Positions 6,619 to 32,392 of a stretch of DNA of 64,000 nt are shown here, piece after piece. The position numbers were made by a program, and so were the translations under genes. The stretch is from the NCBI RefSeq assembly GCF_001723055.1, contig NZ_MDCR01000076.1, positions 1 through 64,000 of the forward strand, read 5' to 3'. This DNA comes from Streptomyces niveus (GTDB lineage: Bacteria > Actinomycetota > Actinomycetes > Streptomycetales > Streptomycetaceae). The notes beneath the pieces are model-generated. The model ran no database searches, was not told where the DNA came from, and saw nothing but the letters and a program-made list of their open reading frames with translations. Numbering within the stretch: the stretch's first letter is position 1; the number at the start of each line of letters is the position of its first letter.

Positions 6619-8244
6619 ATGACCGAAGACCTGTACGTCCTGCCCGCCTCGTACGGCCAGCAGCGGCTCTGGCTGCTGGAGCAGATCGACCCCGACACCC
6701 CGCTGTACAACGAAGCGGTCGGGCTCCGGCTGCGCGGCGCCCTCGACACGGCGGCGCTGACCGCCGCGATGAGCGAGGTGGTGGCCCGGCACGAGGTGCT
6801 GCGCAGCGTCCTGGAACTGGAGGGCGCCGAGGTCGTACAGGTGGTGCGGGAGGCGGAGCCGCTGGCGCTGCCCGTGCACGAGGCGGACAGTCACGAACTG
6901 GCCCTGGCACAGGCGCGCGAACTGGCCGCCGTGCCCTTCGACCTGGGCCGGGGGCCCCTCGTACGGTGCCGGCTGACACGTACCGGGCCCGACGACCACC
7001 TCTTCACCGTCGTCGTGCACCACGCGGTCGCCGACGGATGGTCGCTGGGCGTGCTCCTGGCGGAGCTGACCGCGCTCTACACCGAGGCGGTGCGGGGTAC
7101 GGACCTGTCCACCGTCCTGCCCGAACTCGCCGTCCAGTACGCCGACTTCGCCGCCTGGCAGAAGGAACGCCTCGACACGGGAGAGCTGGACGGTCAGCTC
7201 GACCACTGGCGTGAGCGACTGGCCGGTGTCGCACAGCCGGCCCTGCCCACCGACCGCGTCCCGCCCGCCGCGCCCGAGCGCGGCACCGTACAGGCACCGC
7301 TGCGGCTGCCCGCCGCGATGGTGCGCCAACTGCGCGCGGTCGCCGGCGACACCGGCGACGTCACGCCGTTCATGGTGGCCCTGGCGGCGTACGCGGTGGT
7401 GCTCGCCCGCTGGACCAGGAGCCCCGACGTGGTGGTCGGCCTGCCGTTCGCGGGGCGCGGCCAGGAGGAACTGGAGTCCCTGGTCGGGTTCTTCGTCAAC
7501 ACCGTCCCCGTACGCGTGGACCTCTCGGCGGATCCGGAGTTCACCGCTGTGCTGGGGCAGGTGCGCGCCCGGTGCGTGGACGCGTACGGGAACGCCGACG
7601 TGCCCTTCGAGTTGCTGGTGGAGACGCTCAAACTGCCCCGGCGCAGCGGTCGTACGCCCCTGACCCAGACGATGCTCGCCGTCAACAACACCTGGCTGCC
7701 GGACCGGGCGGAGGCGGCGGGAGTCACCATCGAGCCGACCACACTCCTCCAGGAGCGCGCCCACTTCGAGATCACCGTCGACCTGGACGGCGACGGGGAC
7801 GAACTGACCGGCGCCGTCGTGCTCCAGGCCGACCTCTTCACGCAGGAGACTGCCGACCTGCTGGCCCGCTCGGTCACCGCGGTCCTGCGGGGGGCCGCCA
7901 TGGCACCCGGCATCAAGGTCTCCGCGCTGCCCTGCCCGTTGGCCGACGAGCGCGCAGCCGCGCGGGAGGAGGAGGCGGTGACGGAGACGGCACCGGTCAC
8001 CTCGACGCGGCCGGCCGGCCAGACGGGGACCCCTCGGTCGGCGACGGAGATCATGCTGGCCCGGCTGTGGACCGAGGTGCTGGAGCGGGACACGGTCGGG
8101 GTGCACGAGGAGTTCTACGCAGCCGGGGGGAACTCGCTGCGTGCCGTCCGTGTCGTCATGCGGGCCCGTGAGCAGGGTGTGGAACTCCCCATGGAACGCG
8201 TGCTGGGCGAGCACACCATCCGCGAACTGGCCGAACTGCTCTGA
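6619..8244 (+). CDS. NRPS condensation-carrier (C-T) protein lacking an A domain
   Basis: A 541-residue protein with a complete condensation domain (YGQQRLWLLEQI at the start, HHAVADGWS near residue 136, DFAAWQKERL) followed by a carrier domain (EEFYAAGGNSLRAV near residue 500). No adenylation domain lies between or after. The linker between the two is acidic and Thr/Pro-rich, and the protein ends soon after the carrier. It starts 11 nt after the M20 gene. The missing amino-acid loading step would have to be supplied in trans, most simply by the free-standing adenylation enzyme at 11287-12834. This is a split module. Confidence 0.93.
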   Translation: MTEDLYVLPASYGQQRLWLLEQIDPDTPLYNEAVGLRLRGALDTAALTAAMSEVVARHEVLRSVLELEGAEVVQVVREAEPLALPVHEADSHELALAQARELAAVPFDLGRGPLVRCRLTRTGPDDHLFTVVVHHAVADGWSLGVLLAELTALYTEAVRGTDLSTVLPELAVQYADFAAWQKERLDTGELDGQLDHWRERLAGVAQPALPTDRVPPAAPERGTVQAPLRLPAAMVRQLRAVAGDTGDVTPFMVALAAYAVVLARWTRSPDVVVGLPFAGRGQEELESLVGFFVNTVPVRVDLSADPEFTAVLGQVRARCVDAYGNADVPFELLVETLKLPRRSGRTPLTQTMLAVNNTWLPDRAEAAGVTIEPTTLLQERAHFEITVDLDGDGDELTGAVVLQADLFTQETADLLARSVTAVLRGAAMAPGIKVSALPCPLADERAAAREEEAVTETAPVTSTRPAGQTGTPRSATEIMLARLWTEVLERDTVGVHEEFYAAGGNSLRAVRVVMRAREQGVELPMERVLGEHTIRELAELL

Positions 8245-8284
8245 CCGTCCGGCGGTGTGAGATCGACCGTCCGGTGAGGTGAGC

Positions 8285-9541
8285 TCAGTTGAGCTTGAGC
8301 TTCCACATCGTGCGGGTGGCCACCGGCACCACGGACGCGAACAGCACGAACGGTGCCAGCCACAGCGTCTCGCGGGCGCCGATCCCGTCCACCAGGACGC
8401 CGCCGATCACCGCGCCGAACGGAATGGACCCGAAACTGATCAGCCGGTAGGTGGCGTTCATCCGCGCGTGCAGCTCGGGGGGCGTCACCTTCTGGCGCAC
8501 CGTCACCGCGATCACACTGCCCGCCGTGGACCCGCCGAAGCCGAAGAAGAAGCCGGCGGCCGACGCCAGATACACCGCCGAGTCGGGCCCGGCGAACGCC
8601 GGGAGAAGGAAGTAGGCCCAGGTGCCGAAGAACAGCGCCACCAGCAGCGCCTTCCCGTACCCGATCCGGTCGAAGAGGAACGGGATACCGAGCGCGCCAC
8701 AGATCGCGCCGACACCGCCGACCACGCCCACCATCCCGAACGCGAACTGGCTCATGCCCAGATCACGGACGAAGTAGACGACGAAGCCGACGTTCACCAG
8801 CGAGCCACCCATGTTGTAGATGGCCGCGTGGAGGGCGATGGCCCGCACCGGAGGATTACGGAAGACGGCAGAGAAGCCCTCGACCAGCTCACGGCGGAGA
8901 TTGCGCGACTCGGCCGGATCCTGCTCCTGCGCCTCTTCCCGGTGCCGCATCCGCAGCAGGGCGAGCGCGGAGACGAAATACCCCAAAGCGTTGAGGAAGA
9001 TCACGCCGGCCGCGCTGGATATCCCGGCCAGCCAGCCGCCAAGACCCGGACCCAGCGTCGCGCTCACCGCCTGATCGGTGGTGAGCTTGCTGTTGGCCGA
9101 GCCGAGCGACGCGTCGGGAACGAACCGCGGCAGATAGGACCGCGCGGCGATGTCGTAGACCACCGTCAGCGCGCCGACCAGGGTCGCGACCACGTATATC
9201 TGCACCAGCGACAGCCGGTCCAGGAGCGCGGCCACCGGGATCGTGAGCACCAGCGCCCCCCGGAGGAGGTCGGCCACGATCATCACCGGCCGCCGCGCCC
9301 TGCGCTCCTGCCACACCCCGACGAAGACCGGCAGGGCGAAGAACGGGATCGTGTAGAACGCCTCCAGCAACCCGATCTGGGTGCCGGAGGCGTTCAGGGT
9401 GCTCACCATCACCAGCGGGAGAGCGAACAGCATCATCTCCGCACCGAGCTGGGAGACGAGATCGCCACCCCAGAACAGCTGGAAGTCGCGATCGCGTACG
9501 AGGCTGCGTTCCTTGCCCGCGGGCTTGGCGGCGATGGTCAC
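8285..9541 (-). CDS. MFS transporter, EntS-like exporter family
   Basis: A 418-residue membrane protein with about 12 predicted hydrophobic helices and the RDFQLFWGGDLVSQLG start typical of the MFS_3/EntS-like group. That group includes siderophore, macrolide and peptide exporters. It overlaps the upstream VOC gene by 4 bp, so the two are coupled, and it probably shares a transcript with the hydroxylase gene before it. It converges on the C-T gene with only 40 bp between. The most likely job is export of the cluster product or self-resistance; the substrate is inferred from context only. Confidence 0.88.
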   Translation of the reverse strand: MTIAAKPAGKERSLVRDRDFQLFWGGDLVSQLGAEMMLFALPLVMVSTLNASGTQIGLLEAFYTIPFFALPVFVGVWQERRARRPVMIVADLLRGALVLTIPVAALLDRLSLVQIYVVATLVGALTVVYDIAARSYLPRFVPDASLGSANSKLTTDQAVSATLGPGLGGWLAGISSAAGVIFLNALGYFVSALALLRMRHREEAQEQDPAESRNLRRELVEGFSAVFRNPPVRAIALHAAIYNMGGSLVNVGFVVYFVRDLGMSQFAFGMVGVVGGVGAICGALGIPFLFDRIGYGKALLVALFFGTWAYFLLPAFAGPDSAVYLASAAGFFFGFGGSTAGSVIAVTVRQKVTPPELHARMNATYRLISFGSIPFGAVIGGVLVDGIGARETLWLAPFVLFASVVPVATRTMWKLKLN

Positions 9542-9981
9542 GACGGATCGGCGGCCTTCTGTTTCGACGCCTGCTCCGCCTCGTACGCCGCCTTGGCCGC
9601 CGCGTACTCCGCCGGGTTGCCCTCGATGCAGAACTCGTTGCCCGCCGGGTCGGTCATGACCACCCAGCCACGGCCGTTCGGCTTGCGGCGGTCGTCCTCG
9701 ATCTTCGCGCCGAGCGCCGTCAGCCGCTCCACCTCCTCGTCCCGCGGAAGCTCAGGGGCGAGGTCGAAGTGGATCCGGTTCTTGACCGTCTTGCCCTCCG
9801 GCACCCGCACGAACAGCAGGTCGGGATGGCCTTCCGGAGTGAGCACGCAGCTCTCGTCGTCGTCCGGCTCGTCCTCTTCGTCGATCGGCAGACCGAGAAC
9901 CTGACTCCAGAACGTCGCCACCTCCAGCGGCAGATACGGAGGGGCGCAGTCAATCGTGAGGTGCCGGATGAAGGTGGGCAC
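9538..9981 (-). CDS. VOC (glyoxalase/bleomycin-resistance-like) protein
   Basis: A 147-residue vicinal-oxygen-chelate fold protein. The second half carries NRIHFDLAP and WVVMTDPAGNEFCIE, the usual beta-strand motif with the metal-ligand Glu; the first half begins IRHLTIDC. It is of the Glyoxalase_6-like type often annotated as glyoxalase family. The C-terminal tail is Ala/Lys/Glu-rich. It sits between a hydroxylase and an exporter in one minus-strand unit. Antibiotic sequestration (self-resistance) or a small-molecule isomerase/dioxygenase role are both possible. Confidence 0.85.
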   Translation of the reverse strand: MPTFIRHLTIDCAPPYLPLEVATFWSQVLGLPIDEEDEPDDDESCVLTPEGHPDLLFVRVPEGKTVKNRIHFDLAPELPRDEEVERLTALGAKIEDDRRKPNGRGWVVMTDPAGNEFCIEGNPAEYAAAKAAYEAEQASKQKAADPS

Positions 9982-10025
9982 GTACGAACTCCTTGTCGGT
10001 GGGGGGCGGCACGGCCGTGACCGGC

Positions 10026-11117
10026 TCAGACCAGGGCACGTCCATGGGCGCCGAAACGCCGTCCGGACGAACTCCGCAGGTCCGCGCTCACGTTGATCCG
10101 TCGCAGCCAGCGGTCGGTCCCGTCGTAACGGGCCTGGAAGGGACGACGACCGTGCACCGCGCGCTTGTTGTCGATGATCAGCAGCTCACCGGTGGTCAGC
10201 GCGACGTCCTTCATGCACGCCGTGAACGCCTCGATGGTCGCCTCCAGGGCCTGCTCCGCGGCGGGGTCGTCCAGGCCATGTTGCATGAAGGCCGGGTCGA
10301 TACGCACGTAAGGCGAGTCAGGGTCGCCACTGAGGATCGAGATCCGCTCCGGAGTCTGGTTCATCCGCTGGATCCGCGCGAACGCGTCCGCCTGCCGGCT
10401 GTTCGCGTCGAAACCGGTGGTCTCCGAGTTGAACGCCGCGGTGTGCGACTCGTCGGGCAGGATCACGAAGCGCTCCTCGAAGAGCACCTCCCGCTGCTCA
10501 TCGGGCACCTTCAGATCCACCACCGGCGCGAACATCGTCGGCACCGCGTCAGGGTTGCGCAGACACAGCAGCATGACCCAGTCCGCCCGGTGCGGGTGGA
10601 ACGCGTCCTCGTTGTGCCACTCCAGCAGTGACGCGGAGCTGGAGCCGAGCTGCTGCTCCTCGTGCCCCGCGATGGGGAAGACGTCGAGCACCAACTTGCC
10701 GCGCTGCTGCGACAGATAGGAGAACGGGTCTCCCAGCAGTGAGCCGATCAGCAGCAGCACAGCCGTCGCGGTGGTCACCTCGGCACCGCCGGGCACCGCC
10801 GTGTAATCGCTCGGCGTGGCTCCCACAGCCGTCTCGTCCACCGGCAGATTCGTCAGCACCAGACCGCCGTGCGGTCGCCCGGTGAGCCGGAACTCGGTCA
10901 GCACAGCCCGGAGCCGCTCGGGCAGCCGGTGCGCGTACACCGCCAGCTCGCCCAGCAACTCCTCGAAGGTCTCCGGCCGCTCCACCGCGTGTTCCTTGAC
11001 GAAGGTCTCCGCCAAGGCGCGCAGCTCGATGTGCTCCGCCGTGCTCAGCCGCAGATAGGGCATGCCGTTCTGGTCGCTCAACGCTGCCTCGGCCATCCGA
11101 GCCTGGGTACCGCCCAC
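10026..11117 (-). CDS. Fe(II)/2-oxoglutarate amino-acid beta-hydroxylase, AsnO/VioC-like
   Basis: A 363-residue member of the clavaminate-synthase-like oxygenases. The iron triad is visible as WHNED (His about 168, Glu about 170) and RAVHGRRPF (His about 322), and the basic DRWLRR segment would bind 2-oxoglutarate. Characterised relatives hydroxylate the beta carbon of free amino acids: AsnO on asparagine, VioC on arginine, MppO on enduracididine. I chose the GTG at 11117 because GGGGAGG lies 5 nt upstream of it; a longer open frame reaches 11201 without a comparable site. The downstream NRPS at 16123 has an adenylation pocket reading as Asn, which makes a beta-hydroxyasparagine precursor the first hypothesis. 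An arginine-type substrate is the alternative. Confidence 0.88.
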   Translation of the reverse strand: MGGTQARMAEAALSDQNGMPYLRLSTAEHIELRALAETFVKEHAVERPETFEELLGELAVYAHRLPERLRAVLTEFRLTGRPHGGLVLTNLPVDETAVGATPSDYTAVPGGAEVTTATAVLLLIGSLLGDPFSYLSQQRGKLVLDVFPIAGHEEQQLGSSSASLLEWHNEDAFHPHRADWVMLLCLRNPDAVPTMFAPVVDLKVPDEQREVLFEERFVILPDESHTAAFNSETTGFDANSRQADAFARIQRMNQTPERISILSGDPDSPYVRIDPAFMQHGLDDPAAEQALEATIEAFTACMKDVALTTGELLIIDNKRAVHGRRPFQARYDGTDRWLRRINVSADLRSSSGRRFGAHGRALV

Positions 11118-11286
11118 GTCATCCTCCCCGCCCCGGTCCCGCAATCTCTTGGGTTGCCGGACAATGTTGATTCCGAGCATGTGCGAGGCGGTGGCGGACA
11201 CACAGTCAGGAGGATTCCCGATGGCTGCCGCGGGCCGCGCCCTGTCACCATCACCGCGTCAACCGGGTGTGTGCGAGGGGTGAGCT
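11118..11286. promoter_or_regulatory. Divergent promoter region, hydroxylase versus adenylation gene
   Basis: This 169-bp stretch separates the minus-strand hydroxylase unit from the plus-strand adenylation gene, so it must hold two divergent promoters. I see no confident -35/-10 pair. The less GC-rich part around 11150-11185 (CTCTTGGG, ACAATGTTGATT) is the likeliest core. The right part carries a strong ribosome binding site, CAGGAGGA, at about 11207-11215 that serves a possible small leader ORF rather than the adenylation gene. Confidence 0.4.
11221..11283 (+). CDS. Possible 20-residue upstream leader peptide
   Basis: An ATG at 11221 stands a good distance after an ideal CAGGAGGA ribosome binding site. 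It opens a 20-codon frame rich in Ala, Pro, Ser and Arg (it ends PGVCEG) that stops at 11283, only 3 nt before the GTG of the adenylation enzyme. The adenylation gene's own GAGGGG site lies inside the end of this ORF, so translation of the two would be coupled. No homology is claimed; it could be a chance ORF. Confidence 0.35.
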   Translation: MAAAGRALSPSPRQPGVCEG

Positions 11287-12834
11287 GTGTACGACCACGA
11301 GGGCGGCTGGAACGACACGGTCCGGGAGTACGGCGAGGTGGCCGACCTGTGTGTGCACCAGGTCTTCGAGCGCTGGGCCAAGGAACGCCCCATGCTCGCC
11401 GCCTCCCGCTTCGAGGGCCGGCAGCTGAGCTACGCCGAACTGAACGCGCGGGCCAACCAGTTGGCGCGCCATCTGAACCGGCTGGGCGTCGGGCGGGAGA
11501 GCGTGGTCGGCGTGCTGCTGGACCGCGGACTCGACCTGCCCGTGGCCCTGCTCGGCATCCTCAAGGCGGGCGCGGGCTATCTGCCGATGGACGTCCTGCA
11601 TCCGAGGAGCCGACTGGAGTATCTGGTACGCGACGCCGCCTGCGAGGTGGTGGTCACGGCGGGGGACGCGTACGACAGGCTTCCCGACGACGTGCTGCCC
11701 GTCCGGCTGGACGACGCCTCCGTAGCCGCCGCGCTGGTGGCGCAGCCGGAGGACGATCCGGGCTTTCCCGTCCACCCGGACAACCTGGCCTACCTGCTGT
11801 ACACCTCCGGCACGACGGGACTGCCCAAGGGCACGCTGGTGCAGCACCGTTCGGTGGTCAACCTCGCCGAGTACTGCCGCCGGGAGTACCGGCTTGAGCC
11901 CCCGGACCGCATCCTGCAGTTCGCCAACCCGAGCTTCGACGTGAGCGTCTTCGACTTCTTCGCCGCCTGGTGCAACGGGGTGACGCTCGTTCAGGGATCG
12001 CGGCTGACACTGCTCGACCCCCGGGCGCTCACCGCGCTGATCCGGGACGAGAAGGTCACCGTCATGGACATCCCGCCGGCCGTGGCCCGGCTGCTGGATC
12101 CGGCGGGGCTGCCGGACCTGCGGGCCGCGCACATCGGGGGAGAGGCCCTCGCGGGGGAGCTGGCCGACCGGTTCCAGGCGCCGCACCGGAAGGTCCGTAA
12201 CACCTACGGCCCCACCGAGGTCACCGTGACCTCCACCGAGTACCTGTGCCCGCCGGGGATGGGGGACGCGCTGCCGCCGATCGGCCGGCCGATCGAGAAC
12301 CTGACGGCCCATGTGGTGGACGAGCGGGGGAACCCGGTCCTGGTGGGCGAGCCCGGCGAGCTGCTGATGGGCGGGGTGGGCGTGGCCCGTGGCTACCACG
12401 GGCGGCCCGCGCTGACCGCGGAGAGGTTCGTCCCCGACCCCTACGGGCCGCCCGGCGCGCGGCTCTACCACACGGGTGATCTGGTACGGCGGCGCCCGGA
12501 CGGGCATCTGGAGTTCCTGGACCGGGTCGACACCCAGCTGAAGGTCAACGGCCACCGGGTCGAGCCGGGGGAGATCGAGGCCGTGCTCCGCCGCCACCCC
12601 GCCGTCCGCGAGGCCGTCGTCGATCTGGTCGGGAGCGGGGAGGACCCCACGCTGGTCGCTTTCCTGGTCGTGGACGGCGATTCCCCTACCACGGAGGAGG
12701 TAAGGGCCCATGCCCGCCCGCATCTGCCGACGTACATGATCCCGGCCCGTACCGTGGCGGTGGAGGAGCTTCCTCTCACCGCCAACGGCAAGGTGGACCG
12801 GCGCAAGCTGCGGGACCTCGTCAGCCCTGCGTGA
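11287..12834 (+). CDS. Free-standing NRPS adenylation enzyme
   Basis: A 515-residue adenylation protein that activates an amino acid as its AMP ester and loads it onto a partner carrier. It runs from SYAELNARANQLA through YTSGTTGLPKG, NTYGPTE, YHTGDLV and the VNGHRVEPGE hinge to the terminal lysine motif LTANGKVDRRKL, then ends without a carrier domain. The GTG start follows GAGGGG. Pocket reading is D-V-F-D-H-G-T-V-T-K, related to the D-V-F-D start of the first module but not one I can assign. The best partner in the window is the C-T protein at 6619-8244. Its last 14 bp overlap the convergent sulfotransferase-like gene. Confidence 0.93.
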   Translation: MYDHEGGWNDTVREYGEVADLCVHQVFERWAKERPMLAASRFEGRQLSYAELNARANQLARHLNRLGVGRESVVGVLLDRGLDLPVALLGILKAGAGYLPMDVLHPRSRLEYLVRDAACEVVVTAGDAYDRLPDDVLPVRLDDASVAAALVAQPEDDPGFPVHPDNLAYLLYTSGTTGLPKGTLVQHRSVVNLAEYCRREYRLEPPDRILQFANPSFDVSVFDFFAAWCNGVTLVQGSRLTLLDPRALTALIRDEKVTVMDIPPAVARLLDPAGLPDLRAAHIGGEALAGELADRFQAPHRKVRNTYGPTEVTVTSTEYLCPPGMGDALPPIGRPIENLTAHVVDERGNPVLVGEPGELLMGGVGVARGYHGRPALTAERFVPDPYGPPGARLYHTGDLVRRRPDGHLEFLDRVDTQLKVNGHRVEPGEIEAVLRRHPAVREAVVDLVGSGEDPTLVAFLVVDGDSPTTEEVRAHARPHLPTYMIPARTVAVEELPLTANGKVDRRKLRDLVSPA

Positions 12835-23322: not shown

Positions 23323-26300
23323 TTGCACGTGTTCATTGATCTTCCCTCGGCGGTGCGCGAGAACGCCGCGGTGCGCGGTACGAAGCGCGCCCTGACGTTT
23401 CTGCCCGGTGCTCTGTCGACGACCCGGACGGACCTGACGTTCGCCGAGGTGGACGTGCGCGCCCGCGCGGTCTCCGGACTGCTGCGGCAGCGGGTGCGCC
23501 CCGGTGACCGGGCCCTGCTGATCATGCCGACGGCGGCGGAGTTCGTGCCCGCCTTCCTGGGCTGTCTCGCGGCGGGCGTCGTCGTCGTACCGCTTCCGAT
23601 GCCCGTGGACGAGTCCTCCGTCCGGCGCGTCCTCAACGTCGCCCGGGACTGCGAACCGGCCCTGGTGCTCTCACTGTCGCCGCTGACCCAGCACCTGGCG
23701 CAGGTGCCGGAACTGGCGGCGCTGCGGGACGGCATCCCCTGGATCGACGTCGACCTGATCGACGAGGCCGCGGGCGACGACGCCCCGGAGCATCCGCTGA
23801 GCCCGGACAGTCTGGCCTTCCTCCAGTACACGTCCGGTTCCACCAAGGCCCCGCGCGGCGTGATGGTCACGCACGGCGCTCTCATGGACAACGAGACGGC
23901 CATCCGCCGCAGCTTCCGTGTCACCCCCGACGACACGGTGGTCAGCTGGCTGCCGCTGCACCACGACATGGGGCTGATCGGCGCGCTGCTGCAACCTCTG
24001 TGCACGGGAGCCCGCTCCGTCATCCTGGACCCGCTGACCTTCCTGCGCCGCCCCGCCGTCTGGCTGGAGACGATCTCCGAGGAGCGCGCCGGAATCAGCG
24101 GCGGCCCGAACTTCGCCTACGAGCTGTGCCTGCGCAAGGTGACGGACGAGGAGCGCGCGCGACTCGACCTCAGTTGCTGGCAGCTGGCGTTCAACGGTGC
24201 CGCGCCCGTCGCGCCGCGCACCCTGCGGGCCTTCTCGGAGACGTTCGGGGAGGTGGGCTTCCGGCCCACCACGCACACACCCTGTTACGGGCTGGCCGAG
24301 GTCACGCTGCTGGTGGCGAGCACCGACGCCGTCGAGGAGTGCGCGAGCCGTACGTACGAGGTGTCCGCCCTGGAGCAGGGCCACGCCACGGTCGTGGAGG
24401 ACACCGGCGGGGACGGGGACGGCGGCCGGGAGTTGATCGCGTACGGGCTGCTCGACCACGCGGCCGTACGGATCGTGGATCCGGGCACTCGCGCACCGCT
24501 GCCCGACGGACGGATCGGTGAGATCTGGGTGGCCGGTGAGAGCGCCGGGGCGGGCTACTGGGGCGACGCGGAGGCGTCCGAGGCCACGTTCCGCGCCGAG
24601 CTGGTGGAGGCGGCCGACGGGGTCGGGGAGGCAGGGGAGGCGGAACAGGACCGGAGGACGTACGTCCGCACCGGCGACCTCGGCTTCCTGCACGAGGGCT
24701 CCCTCCAGGTGACGGGCCGGATGAAGGATCTGGTGATCTACCGGGGCCGCAATCTGCACCCGGAGGACCTGGAGATCGACGTCGCCGCCGCCGACCCCGC
24801 CTTCCGGCCGGGCTGCGGCGCGGTCTTCTCCCTGCCGGCCGACGCGGCGGGGGACGAGGCGGTCGTCGTGGTCCAGGAGGTCCGCGCGGGCACTCCCGAG
24901 GAGGACCATCCGGCACTGGCCGGCCGTATCCGCCAGGTGCTCTCGCGCGAGTACGGGGTCACGGCCCGCACGGTCGCGCTGCTGCCGCACGGGGCGATCG
25001 CCAAGACGTCCAGCGGCAAGGTGCAGCGGCACCTGGCACGGCAGCGGTTCCTCGCGAAGGAGCTGCCCATGCTCTGGTCGCGGACCGTCACGGCGACGGA
25101 CTCCCGCGCCGTACGCGACGGGCTGCCCGGTGGCCGGGCCGTCCTGGAGGCGCCCGAGGCGGAGCGGCCCGCGCTGCTCACCCGTGCGCTCTGCGAGCGG
25201 CTCGAACAGCTCACCGGCACCCCGGCGGAGCCCGGCACGGCCCCCACGTCCCTGGGGATGGACTCGCTCATGGCGACCCGGGTCCTCCAGGAGCTGGAGG
25301 ATCTGCTGGGCGTGCGGCTGCGGCAGACCCTCGTGCTGCGCGCCGAGTCGGTCGCCGACCTGGCCGAGGCCGCCCTCAGGGATGCCGCCCGCACCGCGGA
25401 CGCCCCGGACGCGGACGCCCCGGACGCGGACGCCCCGTTCGCGGACGCGGCATCGGTCGGCGGGAGCGGCGGCTACGAACTCACCCACGCCCAGCGGGCC
25501 CTGTGGTTCCTCCAGCGCAGTGACCCCTCCTCGTACGCGTACAACGTCACGCGCGCGTTCCTGCTCACCGGCGACCTCGACACGGACCGGCTGACCGCCG
25601 CGCTGCGGGCTGTGGTCCGCCGCAACCCGGCCCTGCGGCTCACGCTCCGCTCGGCCGGGGGCGTCCCCGAGGCGTCCGTCGCGCGGGGCCGGGCACTGCG
25701 CGTCGAGTCGGTCGATGCCAGAGGGCATGGCGATCAGTGGGTCCAGGACCGGGCCGACGAACTGGCCACCCGTCCCTTCGACCTGGAGCGCGACGAACTG
25801 GTCAGGGCGCTCGTGCTGCACCGCGGCGAGGACACCGTCCTGGTGCTCTCGCTGCACCACGTCGTCTGCGACCTCACCTCCCTGACCGTCGTTCTGGACC
25901 AGCTCAAGGAGGCGTACGACGACCGCGCCGACTGGCCCGAGGCCGAGCCGGCCCGGACCTCACCCGCCGCACTGGAAGAGGCCGCCCTCGCCTCGCGCGG
26001 AGATGAACTGCTCGCCTTCTGGAAGGAGCGGCTGGCTGGCGAGCTGCCCGTGCTGGAGCTGCCCGGCAGCACCCGCCGGCGCGGCCCGGAGGGCGCCACC
26101 GTCTCCTTCGAAGGCTCGCCCGAACTCCTCGCCGCGCTGCGCCGGTTGAGCCGCGACCGCGGCACCACGCTGCACAACCTGCTGCTCGCGTCGTTCCAGG
26201 TGCTCCTGCACCGGATCACCGGCCAGTCGGACCTGGTGGTGGGTGTGCCGGTGAACAGCCGGACCCGGACGGATCTGGTGGACCAGGTCGGCTATCTGGT

Positions 26301-28728
26301 GAACGTGCTGCCGGTCCGCTCCGCCTTCACCACCGGCACGCCCCTCGCGGAGTTCGCCACCGCGACACATCACGGGATGCTGGACGCCCTCGACCACCAG
26401 GACATGCCGTTCGCCCTGCTGACCAGGCATCTCAACCCGGACCGCGCCGGGGGCGCACCACCGGTCTTCCAGGCGATGTTCAGTCACTACACCACCACGC
26501 AGCCGGGCGACCGCGGCGCCGTCGGAGTCGTCCTCGGCGATCCCGACGCGGTGCTCGCCCTGGACGGTGCCACGGTGCGGGCCCATCCGGTGCCGGAGCG
26601 GACGACGCAGTCCGACGTCGGGCTCAACGTGGCCGAGTTCGCGGACTCCCTGCTCTTCGGGCTGTCCTACGACACCGCCCTGCTGCCCCGTGCGCAGGCC
26701 GTACGGCTGCTCAGCGCCTACCAGGCGCTGCTGACCGCCGCCGTGGCCGCCCCGGACGTGGACGTGGCGCTGCTGCCACTGGTCGACGAGGAGGGGGCCA
26801 AGGACCTTCTGGCGCTGTCGGCGGGACCGGTGATCCCGCGTGAGGAGCACTACGTCGCGACCATCGAGCGCCAGGTCGCCCGTACCCCCGACGCCGAGGC
26901 GGTGGACGACGGCACCGAGCGGCTCACCTACGCCGAGCTGGACGCCAGGGCCAACCGTGTCGCCGGGCGGCTGCGCGCGGCCGGCGCGGGCCCGGAGACC
27001 AACGTCGTGCTGTGCGCGGAGCGTTCGGCCTCCTTCCTTGCGGTGCTGCTCGGCATCCACAAGACCGGTGCCTGCTACGTACCGATCGGCACTCGTGAGG
27101 CGCCGCGCCGGATCGCGGACATGCTGCGGACGCTGCGCGCCGTCGCGGTCGTCACGGACGCCCGGGGCCAGGCCCTGATGGAGGGTGTACCGGAGGCCGG
27201 GGGAGGTACGGAGTCCCTGCCGGTGCTCGACCTCGATGTCATGTGCGCGGGGTCGGGCGAGCCGGATCCCTCGGCCCCGTCCGCCGCCGTGTCGCCGGTC
27301 TCCGCCGCGTACATCATCCACACCTCGGGCTCCACCGGTGTGCCGAAGGCCGCGACGGTCACGGCGGCGGGGCTGACGAACCATCTGTGGCAGATGATCG
27401 AGCACTTCTCCGTGACGGCGAGCGACGTGGTGGGCCAGACCGCGCCCGCGACGTTCGACATCTCGCTCTGGCAGTTCCTCGCGCCGCTGATGGTCGGGGG
27501 CCGGCTCCGGGTGCTGGACGACCGGCAGGCGCTCTCCCCGGCCCGGCTGCGGGAGGTTGTCGTCGAGAGCCGGACGACCCTCATGGAGGTCGTCCCCGCC
27601 GTGGTGGCCGCCCTGCTGGAGGCGGGCATCGGGGACAGTCCGCACGCGCTGCGCGCGATGATCTCCGGTGGTGAGGCGCTGAGTTGGGAGACCGCCGACC
27701 GGTGGCTCGCCGCCTGCCGGGACGTCGAGCTGTACAACGCCTACGGGCCCACCGAATGCGCCGACGACGTCAGCATCTACCGCGTCACCGCCGAGTCGGA
27801 CCGCAGCCGCCCGGTGCTGATCGGCGCGCCGCTGGCCAACATGACCGGCTACATCCTCGACGACGGAATGCAGTTGGTGCCGCAGGGCATGGCCGGCGCC
27901 CTGTGGGTCGGCGGGACGGGCGTCGGACGCGGCTACTTGGGCAATCCGTCCGGTACGGCCGAGTCCTTCGTGCCCGACCCCTACGGCCCGCCCGGCGCCC
28001 GGCTCTACCGTACGGGCGACCTGGCCCGGTACACGGCCGACGGGGATCTGGAGTATCTGGGCCGGGTGGACCGTCAGGTCAAGATGCGCGGACTGCGTAT
28101 CGAGCCCGGCGAGGTGGAGGCCGCGCTGCGCGGGGTGGACGGGGTGCGGGAGGCCGTGGTCAAGGTGCACGAGACGGCGCGGGGCATGTCTCTCGTCGGC
28201 CATCTGGTGCTCTCCGGCGCCGGGCGGTCCGGACCTCTCACCCCCGCCGAACACGACGCCTTCCGCCGGGAGTTGGCGGGCCGACTGCCTCGCCACATGA
28301 TCCCGACCGTTCTCCTGCGGATCGACGCCATACCCCGGTTCGGCAACGGCAAGATCAACTACGGGGCGCTGGAGTACCGCCCCGTGGAGAGCGCCGCCCG
28401 GCCCGGTGAAGCCGAACCCGCCGCGCCGGAGGCGTCGGACCGGATCACCGTCGCGGTGCGGGCGATCTGGACGGAACTGCTCGGGGGCGAGCAGCCGGCG
28501 CTCCAGGACAATTTCTTCCTCCTCGGCGGTCATTCCCTGCTTGCCCTGCGAATGATCGACAGAGTCGGTCAGGAAATGTCCGTGGAGCTGGAGATCGATT
28601 CCGTATTCGACCGTCCGACGCTCGGAGAATTTGTCGAAGCGGTACGTGGCGCGAAGGCGCGTACTCGATCGGTGACACCGCTGCGGAGGATATCCAGGGA
28701 GCCGGTGAGGAAACGCGGGCACGCCTGA
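23323..28728 (+). CDS. FAAL-ACP-C-A-T initiating lipopeptide synthetase
   Basis: An 1801-residue protein that begins lipopeptide synthesis. Residues 1-590 are a fatty-acyl-AMP ligase (QYTSGSTKAPRGV near 167, GGPNFAYELC, CYGLAEVTLL). A carrier domain (LGMDSLMATRV, Ser about 647) follows, then a 15-bp-repeat linker, a condensation domain (HHVVCDLTS near 845), an adenylation domain (HTSGSTGVPKA near 1333) and a carrier (LGGHSLL near 1737). The FAAL activates a fatty acid as an adenylate and passes it to the ACP without CoA. The A-domain pocket reads D-I-W-E-I-G-A-D-D-K; the Glu and two Asp suggest a basic side chain, by inference only. The condensation motif has Leu in place of Gly (HHxxxDL). 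The start is TTG at 23323, or possibly GTG at 23329, after GGAGCGGGG. It lies 39 nt after the thioesterase gene. Confidence 0.95.
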   Translation: MHVFIDLPSAVRENAAVRGTKRALTFLPGALSTTRTDLTFAEVDVRARAVSGLLRQRVRPGDRALLIMPTAAEFVPAFLGCLAAGVVVVPLPMPVDESSVRRVLNVARDCEPALVLSLSPLTQHLAQVPELAALRDGIPWIDVDLIDEAAGDDAPEHPLSPDSLAFLQYTSGSTKAPRGVMVTHGALMDNETAIRRSFRVTPDDTVVSWLPLHHDMGLIGALLQPLCTGARSVILDPLTFLRRPAVWLETISEERAGISGGPNFAYELCLRKVTDEERARLDLSCWQLAFNGAAPVAPRTLRAFSETFGEVGFRPTTHTPCYGLAEVTLLVASTDAVEECASRTYEVSALEQGHATVVEDTGGDGDGGRELIAYGLLDHAAVRIVDPGTRAPLPDGRIGEIWVAGESAGAGYWGDAEASEATFRAELVEAADGVGEAGEAEQDRRTYVRTGDLGFLHEGSLQVTGRMKDLVIYRGRNLHPEDLEIDVAAADPAFRPGCGAVFSLPADAAGDEAVVVVQEVRAGTPEEDHPALAGRIRQVLSREYGVTARTVALLPHGAIAKTSSGKVQRHLARQRFLAKELPMLWSRTVTATDSRAVRDGLPGGRAVLEAPEAERPALLTRALCERLEQLTGTPAEPGTAPTSLGMDSLMATRVLQELEDLLGVRLRQTLVLRAESVADLAEAALRDAARTADAPDADAPDADAPFADAASVGGSGGYELTHAQRALWFLQRSDPSSYAYNVTRAFLLTGDLDTDRLTAALRAVVRRNPALRLTLRSAGGVPEASVARGRALRVESVDARGHGDQWVQDRADELATRPFDLERDELVRALVLHRGEDTVLVLSLHHVVCDLTSLTVVLDQLKEAYDDRADWPEAEPARTSPAALEEAALASRGDELLAFWKERLAGELPVLELPGSTRRRGPEGATVSFEGSPELLAALRRLSRDRGTTLHNLLLASFQVLLHRITGQSDLVVGVPVNSRTRTDLVDQVGYLVNVLPVRSAFTTGTPLAEFATATHHGMLDALDHQDMPFALLTRHLNPDRAGGAPPVFQAMFSHYTTTQPGDRGAVGVVLGDPDAVLALDGATVRAHPVPERTTQSDVGLNVAEFADSLLFGLSYDTALLPRAQAVRLLSAYQALLTAAVAAPDVDVALLPLVDEEGAKDLLALSAGPVIPREEHYVATIERQVARTPDAEAVDDGTERLTYAELDARANRVAGRLRAAGAGPETNVVLCAERSASFLAVLLGIHKTGACYVPIGTREAPRRIADMLRTLRAVAVVTDARGQALMEGVPEAGGGTESLPVLDLDVMCAGSGEPDPSAPSAAVSPVSAAYIIHTSGSTGVPKAATVTAAGLTNHLWQMIEHFSVTASDVVGQTAPATFDISLWQFLAPLMVGGRLRVLDDRQALSPARLREVVVESRTTLMEVVPAVVAALLEAGIGDSPHALRAMISGGEALSWETADRWLAACRDVELYNAYGPTECADDVSIYRVTAESDRSRPVLIGAPLANMTGYILDDGMQLVPQGMAGALWVGGTGVGRGYLGNPSGTAESFVPDPYGPPGARLYRTGDLARYTADGDLEYLGRVDRQVKMRGLRIEPGEVEAALRGVDGVREAVVKVHETARGMSLVGHLVLSGAGRSGPLTPAEHDAFRRELAGRLPRHMIPTVLLRIDAIPRFGNGKINYGALEYRPVESAARPGEAEPAAPEASDRITVAVRAIWTELLGGEQPALQDNFFLLGGHSLLALRMIDRVGQEMSVELEIDSVFDRPTLGEFVEAVRGAKARTRSVTPLRRISREPVRKRGHA
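25396..25440 (+). repeat. Three 15-bp tandem units in the ACP-C linker
   Basis: Three consecutive units of GCGGACGCCCCGGAC (the third ends GTTC), plus a partial fourth, encode repeated Ala-Asp-Ala-Pro-Asp. They sit between the ACP and the condensation domain of the lipopeptide synthetase. This is a flexible acidic linker that probably varies by slippage. Confidence 0.85.
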
Positions 28729-28739
28729 GAACGGGCTCT

Positions 28740-28797
28740 GCCGAAATACGTGACCATCCTGGAGCGCACCGCTTCACCTGTGGTTACGTATTTCGGC
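28740..28797. terminator. 17-bp inverted repeat after the synthetase gene
   Basis: The arms GCCGAAATACGTGACCA (28740-28756) and TGGTTACGTATTTCGGC (28781-28797) are complementary with one mismatch and a 24-nt loop. It starts 11 nt after the synthetase stop, so a terminator is the simplest call. The arms are unusually AT-rich for this genome and sit just before the small-peptide gene, so a regulator-binding site is also possible. Confidence 0.65.
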
Positions 28798-28941
28798 TTG
28801 CTCGGAAAAGGGTCCTCGGGGAATTTATGTAAAGTCCCGGACTGATTTCTTCCGAGCGGTTGATACGGCTGGCGGGCTGTGATTCTCTGATGCCGCACAT
28901 TCCAATCGCGTGGCTCGCCGCGCATATCCAGGGGAGTGAAT
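28798..28941 (+). promoter_or_regulatory. AT-richer leader before the small-peptide gene
   Basis: A 144-bp non-coding stretch with clearly lower GC than its surroundings, including GAATTTATGTAAAG at 28821-28834, which could hold a -10 element (TATGTA). No matching -35 at normal spacing is evident. It ends in a good ribosome binding site, GGGGAG at 28931-28936. Its position after a probable terminator implies a promoter dedicated to the peptide gene. Confidence 0.4.
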
Positions 28942-29037
28942 ATGCAGAACATCCAGGAGCAGGACGCGTTCGAGGTTCTCGTCGACGACGAGTACGAGAC
29001 GGCGCAGTACTGCAAGCTGCCCGTCTGTTCCGTCTGA
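28942..29037 (+). CDS. 31-residue Cys-x4-Cys peptide, candidate RiPP precursor
   Basis: An ATG 5 nt after GGGGAG opens 31 codons to a TGA at 29035-29037. The first two thirds are strongly acidic (Glu6, Asp8, Glu11, Asp15, Asp16, Glu17, Glu19) with a hydrophobic FEVLVDDEY segment at 10-18, as in leader peptides. The last nine residues read YCKLPVCSV, with Cys24 and Cys29 the only cysteines. It sits alone between an inverted repeat and a strong palindrome and is followed by a SagB-type flavin dehydrogenase, a PLP enzyme and an exporter. That arrangement is what a ribosomally made, modified peptide locus would look like. I recognise no family. Being short, it needs expression or conservation evidence. 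Confidence 0.65.
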   Translation: MQNIQEQDAFEVLVDDEYETAQYCKLPVCSV

Positions 29038-29052
29038 GTTCGAGTCCCAGTC

Positions 29053-29089
29053 CGAGTCTGAGACCCGGTCCGAGATCGAGTCTGAGACC
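29053..29089 (+). repeat. 13-bp direct repeat pair between peptide gene and hairpin
   Basis: CGAGTCTGAGACC occurs at 29053-29065 and again at 29077-29089, inside a run of related GAGTCC/GAGTCT hexamers that begins right after the peptide stop codon. Function unknown; it may be a slipped-strand array or a spacer. Confidence 0.7.
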
Positions 29090-29100
29090 GACGAAGATCC

Positions 29101-29130
29101 GGGTCCGCCACCCCGCGGGGTGGCGGACCC
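29101..29130 (+). terminator. 30-nt perfect palindrome, probable terminator or attenuator
   Basis: GGGTCCGCCACCCCG (29101-29115) is followed directly by its exact reverse complement. The RNA would form a hairpin of about 13 bp with a tight loop. It lies between the peptide gene and the flavin dehydrogenase gene and ends 19 nt before the latter's ATG. A leaky terminator here would give much more peptide mRNA than enzyme mRNA, a common arrangement in RiPP loci. Confidence 0.75.
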
Positions 29131-29149
29131 TCTCTCCCGGGGGAGTCCG

Positions 29150-30262
29150 ATGCGGGTACGTGTCTCGCGCCTCGCCGTCTTCATGAGCCGGAACGGGCAG
29201 CTCGTCTGCGACGTCCCGGACCGTCACCGACAGGCCGGGCTGCGCCCCGCGGCCTGGGAGCTGCTCGCGCGCCACACGCGCTGGGCCGAGCCCCGCGACG
29301 AGGACGCCCCGCTGGTCAAGCAACTCCTGGGCGCCGGCGTGCTGATCGAGGAGGGCTCGCCCGAGCATCACCAGGAGGACGAACGGAGCCCCTGGCGCTC
29401 CTGGGGCACCGCCGCCACCTACTTCCACCTCGCCACCCGCACGCTCGACGGCGAGCGCTTCGTGACGGCCGCCGACGACACGGCGCGGCTGCGGCAGAAG
29501 GCCGAACAGGAGCCGGAGCCCGAGCCGTTCAAGCGCTACGACATCCCCGCCCTCGCGCTGCCCGCCCCCCTCGCGCTCGACTCCGCGATGGACCGGACAC
29601 TGCGTGAACGCCGCACCACCCGCCGGTTCGACGACGGCGCCCCGGTGACACTGGCGCAGTTGAGCACCGCGCTGCACTGGACCGGCGGTGTCCAGCACCG
29701 TTTCGACGTGCCCGGCTTCGGCGAGGCGGTGCTCAAGGCCAGCCCGTCCGGCGGCTCACGGCACCCCATCGAGATCTACCCCGTGGTGCGCGACGTCAAG
29801 GGACTGGCCCCCGGCCTCTACCACTACGCCGCCGACATCCACGCCCTGGAGCCGCTGCCCGGTGAGGCCCCCGACACCGAGACGCTGCTGCACTGGTTCG
29901 GCGACCAGACGTTCGTGCCCCGGGCCGGTGTGCTGTTCCTCTACACGGCGGTGCTGGAGCGGTCCGCCTGGAAGTACCCGACCGGGCGCACCTACCGCGC
30001 CGTCTACACCGAACTCGGTCATGTGAGCCAGACCGCGTATCTCACCGGGGCCGCGCTCGGGCTCGGTGTCTTCTACACGGCGGCGATGCGCGACGAGCCC
30101 GTCGAGGAGGTCTTCGGGCTCGACTGGCGACACGAGATCCCGCTGGGCATCAACGGCTTCGGTGTGCCCCATCCCCAGGAGGCCGCCCGGCAACGGGAGA
30201 TGGCGGCGGGCGGCGAACCGGGCTTCTCCTACGCGCGCGACGAGTGGGACGGCCTCGGATGA
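29150..30262 (+). CDS. SagB/McbC-type FMN-dependent dehydrogenase
   Basis: A 370-residue nitroreductase-superfamily protein of the SagB/ThcOx group. Residues about 1-80 form an N-terminal domain of the winged-helix type seen in this family (AWELLARHTRW, LLGAGVLIEEGSPEH). The flavin domain follows with RERRTTRRF, SPSGGSRHPIEIY, WKYPTGRTYR, TELGHVSQ and NGFGVP. The Lys-Tyr pair of the azoline-oxidase active site is present (WKYPTGRTYR). Known relatives oxidise thiazolines and oxazolines, made by a YcaO partner, to azoles; no YcaO or ThiF-like protein is in this window. The ATG at 29150 has GGGGGAG upstream. Oxidation of the small peptide's cysteine region, or of an NRPS-bound heterocycle, are the two main hypotheses. 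Confidence 0.88.
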   Translation: MRVRVSRLAVFMSRNGQLVCDVPDRHRQAGLRPAAWELLARHTRWAEPRDEDAPLVKQLLGAGVLIEEGSPEHHQEDERSPWRSWGTAATYFHLATRTLDGERFVTAADDTARLRQKAEQEPEPEPFKRYDIPALALPAPLALDSAMDRTLRERRTTRRFDDGAPVTLAQLSTALHWTGGVQHRFDVPGFGEAVLKASPSGGSRHPIEIYPVVRDVKGLAPGLYHYAADIHALEPLPGEAPDTETLLHWFGDQTFVPRAGVLFLYTAVLERSAWKYPTGRTYRAVYTELGHVSQTAYLTGAALGLGVFYTAAMRDEPVEEVFGLDWRHEIPLGINGFGVPHPQEAARQREMAAGGEPGFSYARDEWDGLG

Positions 30263-31158
30263 GCGGGACGCACGACAGCCGCGTCCATGTGGACACGACC
30301 CGGATCGCCGCGAACATCGCCGCCTTCCATGCCCGTGCCGCGATCCCGGTGCGCGCCCACATCAAGGGCCACCGCACGCTGGAGATCGCACGCCTCCAGC
30401 GGGAGGCCGGCGCCCGGGGCATCGCGGTGACCCGGCCCCAACTGGCCCGGCACTACGTCACCGGCGGCTTCACCGACCTCGTCGCCGCGTGGCCCTGGCG
30501 TGATCCGCAGATCCTGGACCGGTTCGCCGAACTCGCCGCCGACTGCGCCCTGTCCGTGCACCTGGACGACGTGGCGGCGGTCGAAAGCCTCGACGGCGCG
30601 GCCCGTCGGTACGGCACCCGGGCCGCCGTCCGCGTACAGGTCGACGGCGGCACCGACGTCACCGCCGTCGCGGAGGCCGTCGACCGGGCCCGTAACCTCA
30701 GCCTGGAGGGGATCGTCGGCTACCTCGACATCGAGACGCCCGAGCAGGCGACACGCCGTCAGGAGCTGGCCCGTATCCTCGCCGACTCGCTGGTCGAGAC
30801 GGCCGAACGGCTGCGCGCCGACGGGCACCCCTGCGACACCGTCGCCCTCGGCGGCACCCCCTGCGTCGACACCTTGGCGCCCGGCATCACCGAACTGGGC
30901 GCGGGCGCCTACCCGCTGGGTGACGCCGGGCTTGTCGCGCTGGGCGTCCTGACGGAGAAGGACATCGCCGTACGGGTCGACCCCGGCGGGACGGGTCTGC
31001 TGGCCGAGTGCGGACAGCCGTGGCACCCGGCCCCCTTCGTACGGCTGCCGGACGGCGCCCTCGCCCCCACCCACATCTGCCCGCTCCTGCTGAACGTGAC
31101 CGAACTCCACACCGACACAGGGGAGCGCTGGCCCGTCCTCGCCCCCGTCACCGCGTGA
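30259..31158 (+). CDS. Fold-type III PLP enzyme, D-serine dehydratase/D-threonine aldolase-like
   Basis: A 299-residue alanine-racemase-fold protein. AHIKGHRTLEIARLQ near residue 35 matches the PLP-lysine segment of D-threonine aldolases and DSD1-type dehydratases (RPHxKTHK). The C-terminal PTHICPLLL supplies the His-x-Cys zinc motif typical of DSD1. It is shorter than the usual 370-400 residues. Known members dehydrate D-Ser or D-threo-3-hydroxyaspartate, or split D-Thr. It overlaps the flavin gene by 4 bp (ATGA) and is followed 7 nt later by the exporter gene. Action on a beta-hydroxy amino acid would link it to the hydroxylase at 10026-11117; action on the ribosomal peptide is also conceivable. 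Confidence 0.85.
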   Translation: MSGTHDSRVHVDTTRIAANIAAFHARAAIPVRAHIKGHRTLEIARLQREAGARGIAVTRPQLARHYVTGGFTDLVAAWPWRDPQILDRFAELAADCALSVHLDDVAAVESLDGAARRYGTRAAVRVQVDGGTDVTAVAEAVDRARNLSLEGIVGYLDIETPEQATRRQELARILADSLVETAERLRADGHPCDTVALGGTPCVDTLAPGITELGAGAYPLGDAGLVALGVLTEKDIAVRVDPGGTGLLAECGQPWHPAPFVRLPDGALAPTHICPLLLNVTELHTDTGERWPVLAPVTA

Positions 31159-31165
31159 GAAGCGG

Positions 31166-32392
31166 ATGAACAAGCTCGACGTCCTGCGGGTACGGGACTT
31201 CCGCCTGTTCTTCCTCGGCAGCCTCGCCTCCGTGCTGGGCGACTTCATGGCGCCCGTCGCGCTGGCCTTCGCCGTGCTGGACATCGGCGACGCCGGGGAC
31301 CTGGGCCTCGTACTCGCCGCCCGCGTCCTGCCGTTGATGGCGTTCATGCTGCTCGGCGGGGTGGTGGCGGACCGGCTGCCGCGCCGCCTGGTGATGGTCT
31401 CGTCCGACCTCGTACGCGGCGCGGGGCAGGGGCTGCTCGCCGTCCTGCTGCTCACCGGCAGCGCGGGCATCTGGCACCTGGTCGTGCTCCAGGTCGTGCA
31501 CGGCACGGCCTCGGCGCTGTTCATGCCCGCCATCAGCGGTCTCGTCCAGCAGACGGCACCCGCCGACCGGTTGCAGGAGGCCAACTCGCTGTGCAGCCTG
31601 GCGCGCGCCGGTGGGAACGTCGCGGGCCCCGTGCTCGCCGGCGTACTCGTCGCCACCGCCGGCTCCGGCTGGGCCATCGCTGTCGACGCCGCGACCTTCC
31701 TCGTCAGCGCCTACTTCCTGCGGCTGCTGCCCAAGGGTGTGGTGCCGCCCAAGCTCACGGTCCACTCCATGCTGGCCGATCTGCGCGAGGGCTGGCGGGA
31801 GTTCACCGGGCGACGCTGGATCTGGGTCGTCGTCGTCGCGGCCTCCCTGGCCAACGGGCTCCAGGCCGCCTACTCGGTGCTGGGCCCCGTGGTGGCGGAG
31901 GAGCGGCTCGGCGGAGCCACCGCGTGGGGAGTCGTCGTCTCCTGCTACGGCGCGGGCGCCTGTGTGGGCGGGCTGGCCACGCTCTGGCTGAAGGCGCGCT
32001 TCCCGCTGCGCTCAGCTCTCTACGCCGACTGTCTGTGCTCCCTGCCGCTCCTGGCGCTGGCGCTGCAACTGGCCACACCGTCCCTGGCGGTGGCCGCCTT
32101 CCTCGGCGGCTGCGGACTGATGGTCTTCAACACGCTCTGGGAGACCACGCTGCAGAGCAACGTGCCCGGCGACCGCCTCTCCCGGGTCAGCGCCTACGAG
32201 TGGCTGGGCTCCATGGCCTGCCAGCCGCTGGGCATGGTGCTGGTGCCCGTCATCGCGCTGCGCACCGGTCCCGAGCCGGTGCTGTACGCGTGCGGACTGA
32301 TCATGCTGGCGATGTCGCTCGCGCAGCTGCTCCTGCCGGACGTCCGCCGCCTTCCTGTCGCGACGTCCGCCCCTGCGGAGAGCAAGGCGTGA
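31166..32392 (+). CDS. MFS exporter, EntS-like
   Basis: A 408-residue membrane protein with 10-12 hydrophobic helices. It opens LDVLRVRDFRLFFLGSLAS and carries ADRLPRRLVM between helices 2 and 3, typical of the MFS_3 group. It is the last gene of the small-peptide unit and converges with the ACT gene, 7 bp apart. It is the second exporter of this family within 24 kb. Having one exporter in each subregion is consistent with two distinct products or with export plus resistance. Confidence 0.9.
   Translation: MNKLDVLRVRDFRLFFLGSLASVLGDFMAPVALAFAVLDIGDAGDLGLVLAARVLPLMAFMLLGGVVADRLPRRLVMVSSDLVRGAGQGLLAVLLLTGSAGIWHLVVLQVVHGTASALFMPAISGLVQQTAPADRLQEANSLCSLARAGGNVAGPVLAGVLVATAGSGWAIAVDAATFLVSAYFLRLLPKGVVPPKLTVHSMLADLREGWREFTGRRWIWVVVVAASLANGLQAAYSVLGPVVAEERLGGATAWGVVVSCYGAGACVGGLATLWLKARFPLRSALYADCLCSLPLLALALQLATPSLAVAAFLGGCGLMVFNTLWETTLQSNVPGDRLSRVSAYEWLGSMACQPLGMVLVPVIALRTGPEPVLYACGLIMLAMSLAQLLLPDVRRLPVATSAPAESKA

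Follow-up and report, generated by a model that had tools for sequence, protein, structure and literature searches.

A conserved short peptide gene beside a SagB-type flavin enzyme in Streptomyces niveus: a candidate YcaO-independent RiPP-type cassette

The stretch of Streptomyces niveus DNA analysed here (the window; positions 1 to 64,000 of contig NZ_MDCR01000076.1) carries on its forward strand a four-gene cassette, which an earlier note made from the letters alone had described as a minimal locus resembling those for ribosomally synthesized and post-translationally modified peptides (RiPPs). The first gene extends from the ATG at 28942 to the stop at 29037 and encodes a putative 31-residue precursor, MQNIQEQDAFEVLVDDEYETAQYCKLPVCSV; the ribosome binding site AGGGGAG, read from the sequence, lies just 5' of it (28930..28936). 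A SagB-type flavin mononucleotide (FMN) dehydrogenase of 370 residues (29150..30262), a fold-III pyridoxal phosphate (PLP) enzyme (30259..31158) whose ATG overlaps the sagB stop by 4 bp, and a major facilitator superfamily (MFS) exporter assigned by domain match (31166..32392) complete the cassette, and all of the elements that the note had listed are in place. In the peptide open reading frame (ORF), the GC content at the three codon positions is 0.62/0.25/0.91; the third position is GC-rich and the second GC-poor, a pattern that the long genes of the window share.

The small ORF is a real, conserved gene, and the family to which it belongs was found at seven actinobacterial loci in five genera. 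Seven is a floor, as the whole-genome samples were draws (392 genomes from the genus, 297 from the family, 296 from relatives, 394 from the class, 150 from the family of genome G700, 70 from the genus of G540, and 1 and 2 from the genera of G799 and G783, respectively); gene calls outside the window are crude and rest on GC by codon position. Streptomyces apocyni has the same gene order, with a peptide that is 71% identical. In three genomes from another family, G700 (Planomonospora venezuelensis), G783 and G799 (Streptosporangiaceae bacterium NEAU-GS5), the peptide gene is directly upstream of sagB. A hidden Markov model (HMM) of three peptides (window, S. apocyni and G700), searched against 11,130 six-frame segments of 32 loci, returned its own three members and the peptides of G799 and G783 (E 1.6e-5 and 0.0015), and nothing else at E <= 10. 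The latter two had been spotted by eye beforehand but were absent from the model, and both are directly upstream of SagB orthologues. That the held-out search found just two further peptides, both beside SagB, argues that the family does not arise by chance.

A five-sequence model was run on 27 whole genomes. Peptides were found in G243 and G540, neither of which is in the model (E 4.1e-7 and 3.4e-4), and the 21 remaining genomes gave one weak match (E 0.0755). The two peptides, MANEFENVESAFEVIVDDEYAKSQTCLIPPSA and MQSPAEEMIAFEELEQDEYATVQACQIPPC, are located 36 and 47 kb from their sagB genes, with genes for nonribosomal peptide synthetases (NRPS) between. Around the sagB genes themselves (17-kb loci L029 and L030), neither the motif described below nor the three- and five-sequence models identified a nearby peptide. 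The note had named related loci with no small ORF ahead of the flavin gene as a refutation. Viewed locally, G243 and G540 are such loci, but both have the peptide 36–47 kb away, which reverses that outcome; a cis-linked peptide in every locus is rejected, as these two were located only by the whole-genome search. In the G700 family (150 genomes), the peptide was found only in the three with a SagB of at least 55%, all of which were in the model; it was not found in the remaining 147, which include two genomes with a SagB of 41–42%.

The seven peptides match no NCBIfam family and, in Pfam, yield only one chance-level MbtH match (1/7, E 0.2); the plasmid records hold no match to the peptide. A protein search over 5.8 billion entries, which needs shared five-residue words, returned three matches, one of them publicly named, as a hypothetical protein. 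Our literature search found no description of the peptide family of this cassette.

Alignment of the seven peptides reveals an invariant block, F10-E11-x4-D16-x-Y18-x5-C24 (28969..29013, forward strand), in which F10, E11, D16, Y18 and C24 are present in 7/7 peptides with no gap from F to C. Past Cys24, the tails vary in length and sequence. The earlier note had placed the modification either on a Cys24/Cys29 pair or at the C-terminus. Cys24 is found in every peptide, but C-x4-C in just 2/7, which excludes it as the conserved feature of the family; Cys29 is not conserved, and the pair does not hold up as the target. A single C-terminal target does not fit the differing tails either.

At all seven loci, a D-serine-dehydratase-like PLP enzyme accompanies the SagB-type flavin dehydrogenase. 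The seven SagB proteins with a PLP partner form one clade (support 96/99) in a tree of 28 proteins, built without L005, L047, L048 and L058, where no ORF was called. The family motif and this co-occurrence with one SagB clade bear out the view that the small ORF is conserved and belongs to the pathway of the flavin enzyme; as for a RiPP precursor, a genetically encoded peptide is conserved together with a modifying enzyme.

The flavin enzyme falls in the SagB/ThcOx family by its score against TIGR03605 (108.8 bits, cut-off 78.4). Its best NCBIfam match is TIGR04511, "putative peptide maturation dehydrogenase", yet the 190.5 bits lie under the cut-off of 240 and the protein is not a member. The start was taken as ATG 29150, not GTG 29120, because the eight closest of the listed homologues are all 370 residues long. 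The SagB alignment comprised the window protein and 54 of 120 listed homologues (241 found). Lys275-Tyr276 (29972..29977) aligns with the Lys-Tyr of McbC, which has a catalytic role. The N-terminal residues 1–67 (29150..29350) are predicted as strands, two helices and a strand, all modelled at high confidence, and we assign them tentatively to the winged-helix type of RiPP recognition element (RRE). Residues 1–342 of the 370 in the model superpose on ThcOx 115–469, N-terminal domain included. The structural matches include the RiPP oxidase ThcOx, the bacillamide NRPS oxidase BmdC and, as a fold match, AlbAB, a nitroreductase-like oxidase in a two-protein complex.

SagB, McbC and ThcOx are azol(in)e RiPP oxidases of the thiazole/oxazole-modified microcin (TOMM) and cyanobactin pathways, and flavin enzymes of this kind usually work with a YcaO partner that makes the azoline. 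The absence of a YcaO beside the flavin enzyme, which the note had remarked on, extends well beyond the window. The PF02624 search gave no match on the window's contig (C583), and across 27 genomes with such SagB genes a YcaO is found within 20 kb on the same contig in only one (G353, 13.7 kb from the SagB gene). Ten of the 27 have no detectable YcaO at all, among them G243 and G700, the latter with the full cassette. Some of the genomes are in hundreds of contigs, such that a YcaO past a contig end could be missed; the window's own genome gives four YcaO matches, spread over three contigs other than C583. The YcaO that marks a TOMM locus has no match on C583 and is not detectable in G700, and from these gene comparisons YcaO independence of the cassette appears well supported. 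In contrast, locus L002 (Nonomuraea) has YcaO and TfuA genes directly after the SagB gene. The genome of the window also contains a second, distant SagB-like frame (28%, one internal stop; L007, contig C308 of genome G000, 9720–12391) approximately 1 kb from a YcaO match, which is probably an ordinary YcaO-type locus.

The PLP enzyme, which matches Ala_racemase_N, resembles D-serine dehydratase (DSD) and D-threonine aldolase (DTA). Lys41 and His277-x-Cys279 (numbered from GTG 30244) are invariant; we take the former to be the catalytic Lys and the latter the metal pair, and two PDB entries, titled "H351A mutant" and "C353A mutant in the metal-free form", fit the metal-pair roles. With the Lys, the His-x-Cys pair and the fold all present, the protein belongs to the DSD/DTA-like fold-III enzymes. 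Its structural matches are dehydratase-like enzymes, but it has ∼300 residues, compared with 376–428 in the matched solved chains of D-serine dehydratase, D-threo-3-hydroxyaspartate dehydratase and D-threonine aldolase. Our literature search retrieved no paper that links a fold-III PLP enzyme of this type to a RiPP. An MFS gene accompanies SagB in 6/7 loci.

We consider it reasonably probable that the cassette makes a YcaO-independent RiPP-type product, in which SagB grips FExxxxDxY and oxidizes the peptide at or beside Cys24. Of the options raised in the note, a new peptide modification by SagB and the PLP enzyme is the best reading, given a conserved peptide gene with no YcaO beside the flavin enzyme. 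The peptide would be the SagB substrate, and its presumed recognition part, FExxxxDxY, would be held in the predicted RRE-like domain while the core is oxidized at or near the invariant Cys24. Since no known cassette enzyme would make an azoline without YcaO, azoline chemistry is not expected, and the reaction should therefore differ from the textbook one. A two-electron dehydrogenation is the likely type, with a Cα–Cβ double bond as first choice by analogy with PflD. Because fold-III PLP enzymes require a free amino group, the PLP enzyme would act afterwards, on a released fragment, on an N-terminus that has become exposed or on a free amino acid. The MFS protein would export the product, and in the NRPS-linked loci the oxidized piece may, in addition, enter the NRPS product.

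PflD from Pseudomonas, which combines a multinuclear nonheme iron oxidative enzyme (MNIO) with a nitroreductase, comes closest as a precedent and is the only characterized YcaO-free case that we found; its nitroreductase part makes a dehydroamino acid, Z-dehydrophenylalanine (PMC12636437). The related pos/Os17 cluster is described in PMC7726476 as having a SagB-type gene without homologues of sagA, sagC and sagD. The likeness lies in a nitroreductase that acts without YcaO on a ribosomal peptide, as is predicted here. The PflD and Os17 systems differ in their MNIO fusion, HEXXH and GNAT enzymes and longer precursor (85 residues in Os17), none of which is found in the four-gene cassette. Some ATP-grasp (graspetide) loci likewise have SagB-like nitroreductases close by, adjacent to predicted precursor genes (PMC8939145); the cassette here has no ATP-grasp gene. 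Relative to SagB, McbC and ThcOx systems, it lacks an adjacent YcaO, has a peptide that is very short and in which a single Cys is invariant, and includes a PLP partner. All of the enzyme families involved are known and there is one precedent without YcaO, so the cassette is a variant of the RiPP kind, not a wholly new kind; its predicted peptide-modifying chemistry would be one not characterized so far.

Several points weigh against this reading. It draws on gene comparison and models, from which binding, turnover and product are inferred, and it offers no explanation for the role of the PLP enzyme. The cassette has no protease; peptidase genes are present in some neighborhoods (M20 at window 5267–6607, S15 in L051), with at most a putative link to it. 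In G243, no MFS gene was matched among the called genes at 4576–4632 kb. The G540 peptide is the weakest member, as its frame is open for 359 residues without a stop and its start (1468862) was picked by the ribosome site. Between the window and S. apocyni, 9 of the 14 changed codons in the peptide gene are nonsynonymous, and selection is therefore visible in the motif, not in dN/dS. An NRPS is in or near the cassette at 5/7 loci, BmdC is a structural relative of SagB that serves an NRPS, and NRPS-linked SagB enzymes for which no peptide is reported have been tied to oxazoline oxidation in nocobactin clusters (PMC7413640).

The NRPS association differs between loci. In the window and S. apocyni, the cassette directly adjoins NRPS genes, the last of which in the window (23323..28728, forward strand) has two AMP-binding, one Condensation and two PP-binding domains by Pfam; we take the first AMP-binding domain, by eye, to be fatty-acyl-AMP-ligase-like. 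In G243 and G540, NRPS genes separate the peptide and sagB parts, and upstream of the G799 peptide a PP-binding/thioesterase/MFS gene ends at a distance of 6.7 kb, with condensation-adenylation domains at 9–15 kb. The 67-kb contig of G783 gave no NRPS match, and the nearest NRPS-like feature in G700 is one partial adenylation-like match 19.6 kb away. The note's placement of the cassette at the end of a lipopeptide cluster is accurate for the window and S. apocyni, but the cassette also occurs elsewhere. Its suggestion that the peptide serves as a scaffold for NRPS-made material is compatible with five of the loci and is weakened by the other two; because these are not in or near NRPS genes, an obligate NRPS scaffold or other obligate NRPS role is unlikely.

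A less restrictive version, in which the peptide is a disposable scaffold whose Cys region is converted by SagB and the PLP enzyme to an unusual amino acid that is excised and then loaded onto an NRPS or exported, is unlikely. In its favor, the portion up to Cys24 is fixed and the tail variable, the PLP enzyme is similar to enzymes that act on free amino acids, 5/7 loci are NRPS-linked, and beside sagB both G243 and G540 retain an OsmC-like gene and a PLP enzyme of Cys/Met metabolism. The cassette, however, has no protease or ligase of its own, and two loci would have no NRPS to supply. The corresponding pathway, in which a throw-away ribosomal scaffold has an unusual amino acid built from its invariant-Cys region by SagB and the dehydratase-like PLP enzyme, for export at stand-alone loci or for feeding to an NRPS, is a speculative one that we likewise think unlikely. 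If true, it would amount to a ribosomal supply line for non-ribosomal peptides, amid a wider set of 18–35-residue peptides serviced by YcaO-free SagB enzymes.

It is rather doubtful that SagB oxidizes an azoline or amino acid on the neighboring NRPS line, in the way proposed for nocobactin-type clusters, with the peptide merely accompanying it. The five NRPS-linked loci, the structural kinship with BmdC and the correlation of SagB-like genes with oxazole in nocobactins (PMC7413640) speak for such a role, but it leaves the co-conserved peptide unexplained, and there is no NRPS match on the G783 contig and just a partial one at G700. HHxxxD is the motif of condensation (C) domains and DxxxxDxxS that of cyclization domains. 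A motif scan of the four window NRPS proteins found five C domains with HHxxxD and two DxxxxDxxS matches, neither of which is at a C-domain active site; the cyclization domain that goes with NRPS azoline oxidases of the nocobactin type or BmdC was not found in these proteins.

Alternatively, instead of being modified by SagB, the peptide could bind it as a small, stable partner or activate it, with the fixed FExxxxDxYxxxxxC block as a docking strand and AlbAB as an example of a two-protein oxidase. We regard this as improbable, as the variable tail after Cys24, the RRE-like domain and the exporter suit a precursor better.

Both of the repeats described around the peptide gene are real. An inverted repeat with 17-nt arms (94%) and a 24-nt gap lies between the NRPS and peptide genes (28740–28756/28781–28797), and a perfect palindrome of 2 × 15 nt (100%) lies between the peptide gene and sagB (29101..29130), nearly the same in S. 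apocyni. The palindrome may set the peptide:enzyme ratio in these two species; at L056 the peptide-sagB gap is 26 nt, with no space for one. That the small ORF acts as a leader or attenuator, controlling sagB through this palindrome, is very improbable and is rejected as a cis-acting role, because two of the peptide genes are 36 and 47 kb away from sagB, with NRPS genes in between, and although the window ORF has two Cys codons and a hairpin can also fold at L057, the L056 gap is too short and the conserved residues (F, E, D, Y and one Cys) include no single-codon run. A GAGTC-rich low-complexity stretch (29038..29090, forward strand) is largely missing from S. apocyni in the pairwise alignment. 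Scans of the window against Rfam and for tRNAs, and of 28600–29300 for promoters and terminators, gave no matches.

Upstream, positions 117–28728 of the window are occupied by a lipopeptide NRPS cluster. It also holds acyl-CoA dehydrogenase-like, M20 peptidase and TauD-like genes, a stand-alone condensation-peptidyl carrier protein (C-PCP) gene, and stand-alone AMP-binding and sulfotransferase genes. At L029 and L030, the Cys/Met-metabolism PLP enzymes beside SagB are 79% identical to each other and the OsmC-like proteins have the common start MRNGLNITGVSE; these genes may point to sulfur chemistry.

Short peptide genes are also found beside more distant SagB genes. A test for ORFs of 18–36 residues with an ATG and a Shine-Dalgarno (SD) value of 6 or more within 600 nt upstream was applied to 30 loci, and 10 of 23 distant SagB loci were positive versus 4 of 231 other genes; the cut-offs were set after a first look, and L004 and L005, with no qualifying ORF earlier, were left out, so that the p-value is optimistic. 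Two of the seven main-clade loci pass, and the window does not. The peptides of related SagB genes are related too: MKKVELAAKPVQARSIKIHYQR and MKKMDIAAKPVEGRSIKIHFQR occur in sister SagB branches, and MDIVIIEDREVVAHHPSL in a pair of sister SagB, with three near-identical copies in one locus. None of nine peptides from this wider set reached the cut-off in NCBIfam.

Other features of these loci can be noted. In L031–L049, Streptomyces SagB loci mostly without a nearby YcaO, an ATG gene of 18–36 residues with a strong ribosome binding site is often just upstream, and L036 has three tandem, near-identical 18-residue genes (7103–7159, 7203–7259 and 7303–7359). A second acidic peptide family (EVVEx-EGE-like) occurs beside SagB-MFS pairs in L032 (7719–7802), L044 (reverse-complemented, 7093–7176) and L003 (9403–9504); at L003, a radical SAM enzyme and a methyltransferase are present as well. 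In L033 (reverse-complemented, 6915–10587), an MFS gene, a 23-residue peptide MAKLKVQVRAKKTRGKLLSNHAA, SagB and a periplasmic binding protein (PF01497) are consecutive, as if for a metallophore, and in L005, on a Priestia plasmid, SagB-MFS adjoins nickel ABC genes.

The family provides seven precursor-enzyme pairs in five genera, two of them without an adjacent NRPS, which makes substrate and reaction testable with two genes. Its peptides are mostly unannotated. Tiny peptide genes are seemingly common beside YcaO-free SagB genes, and such systems may not be rare.

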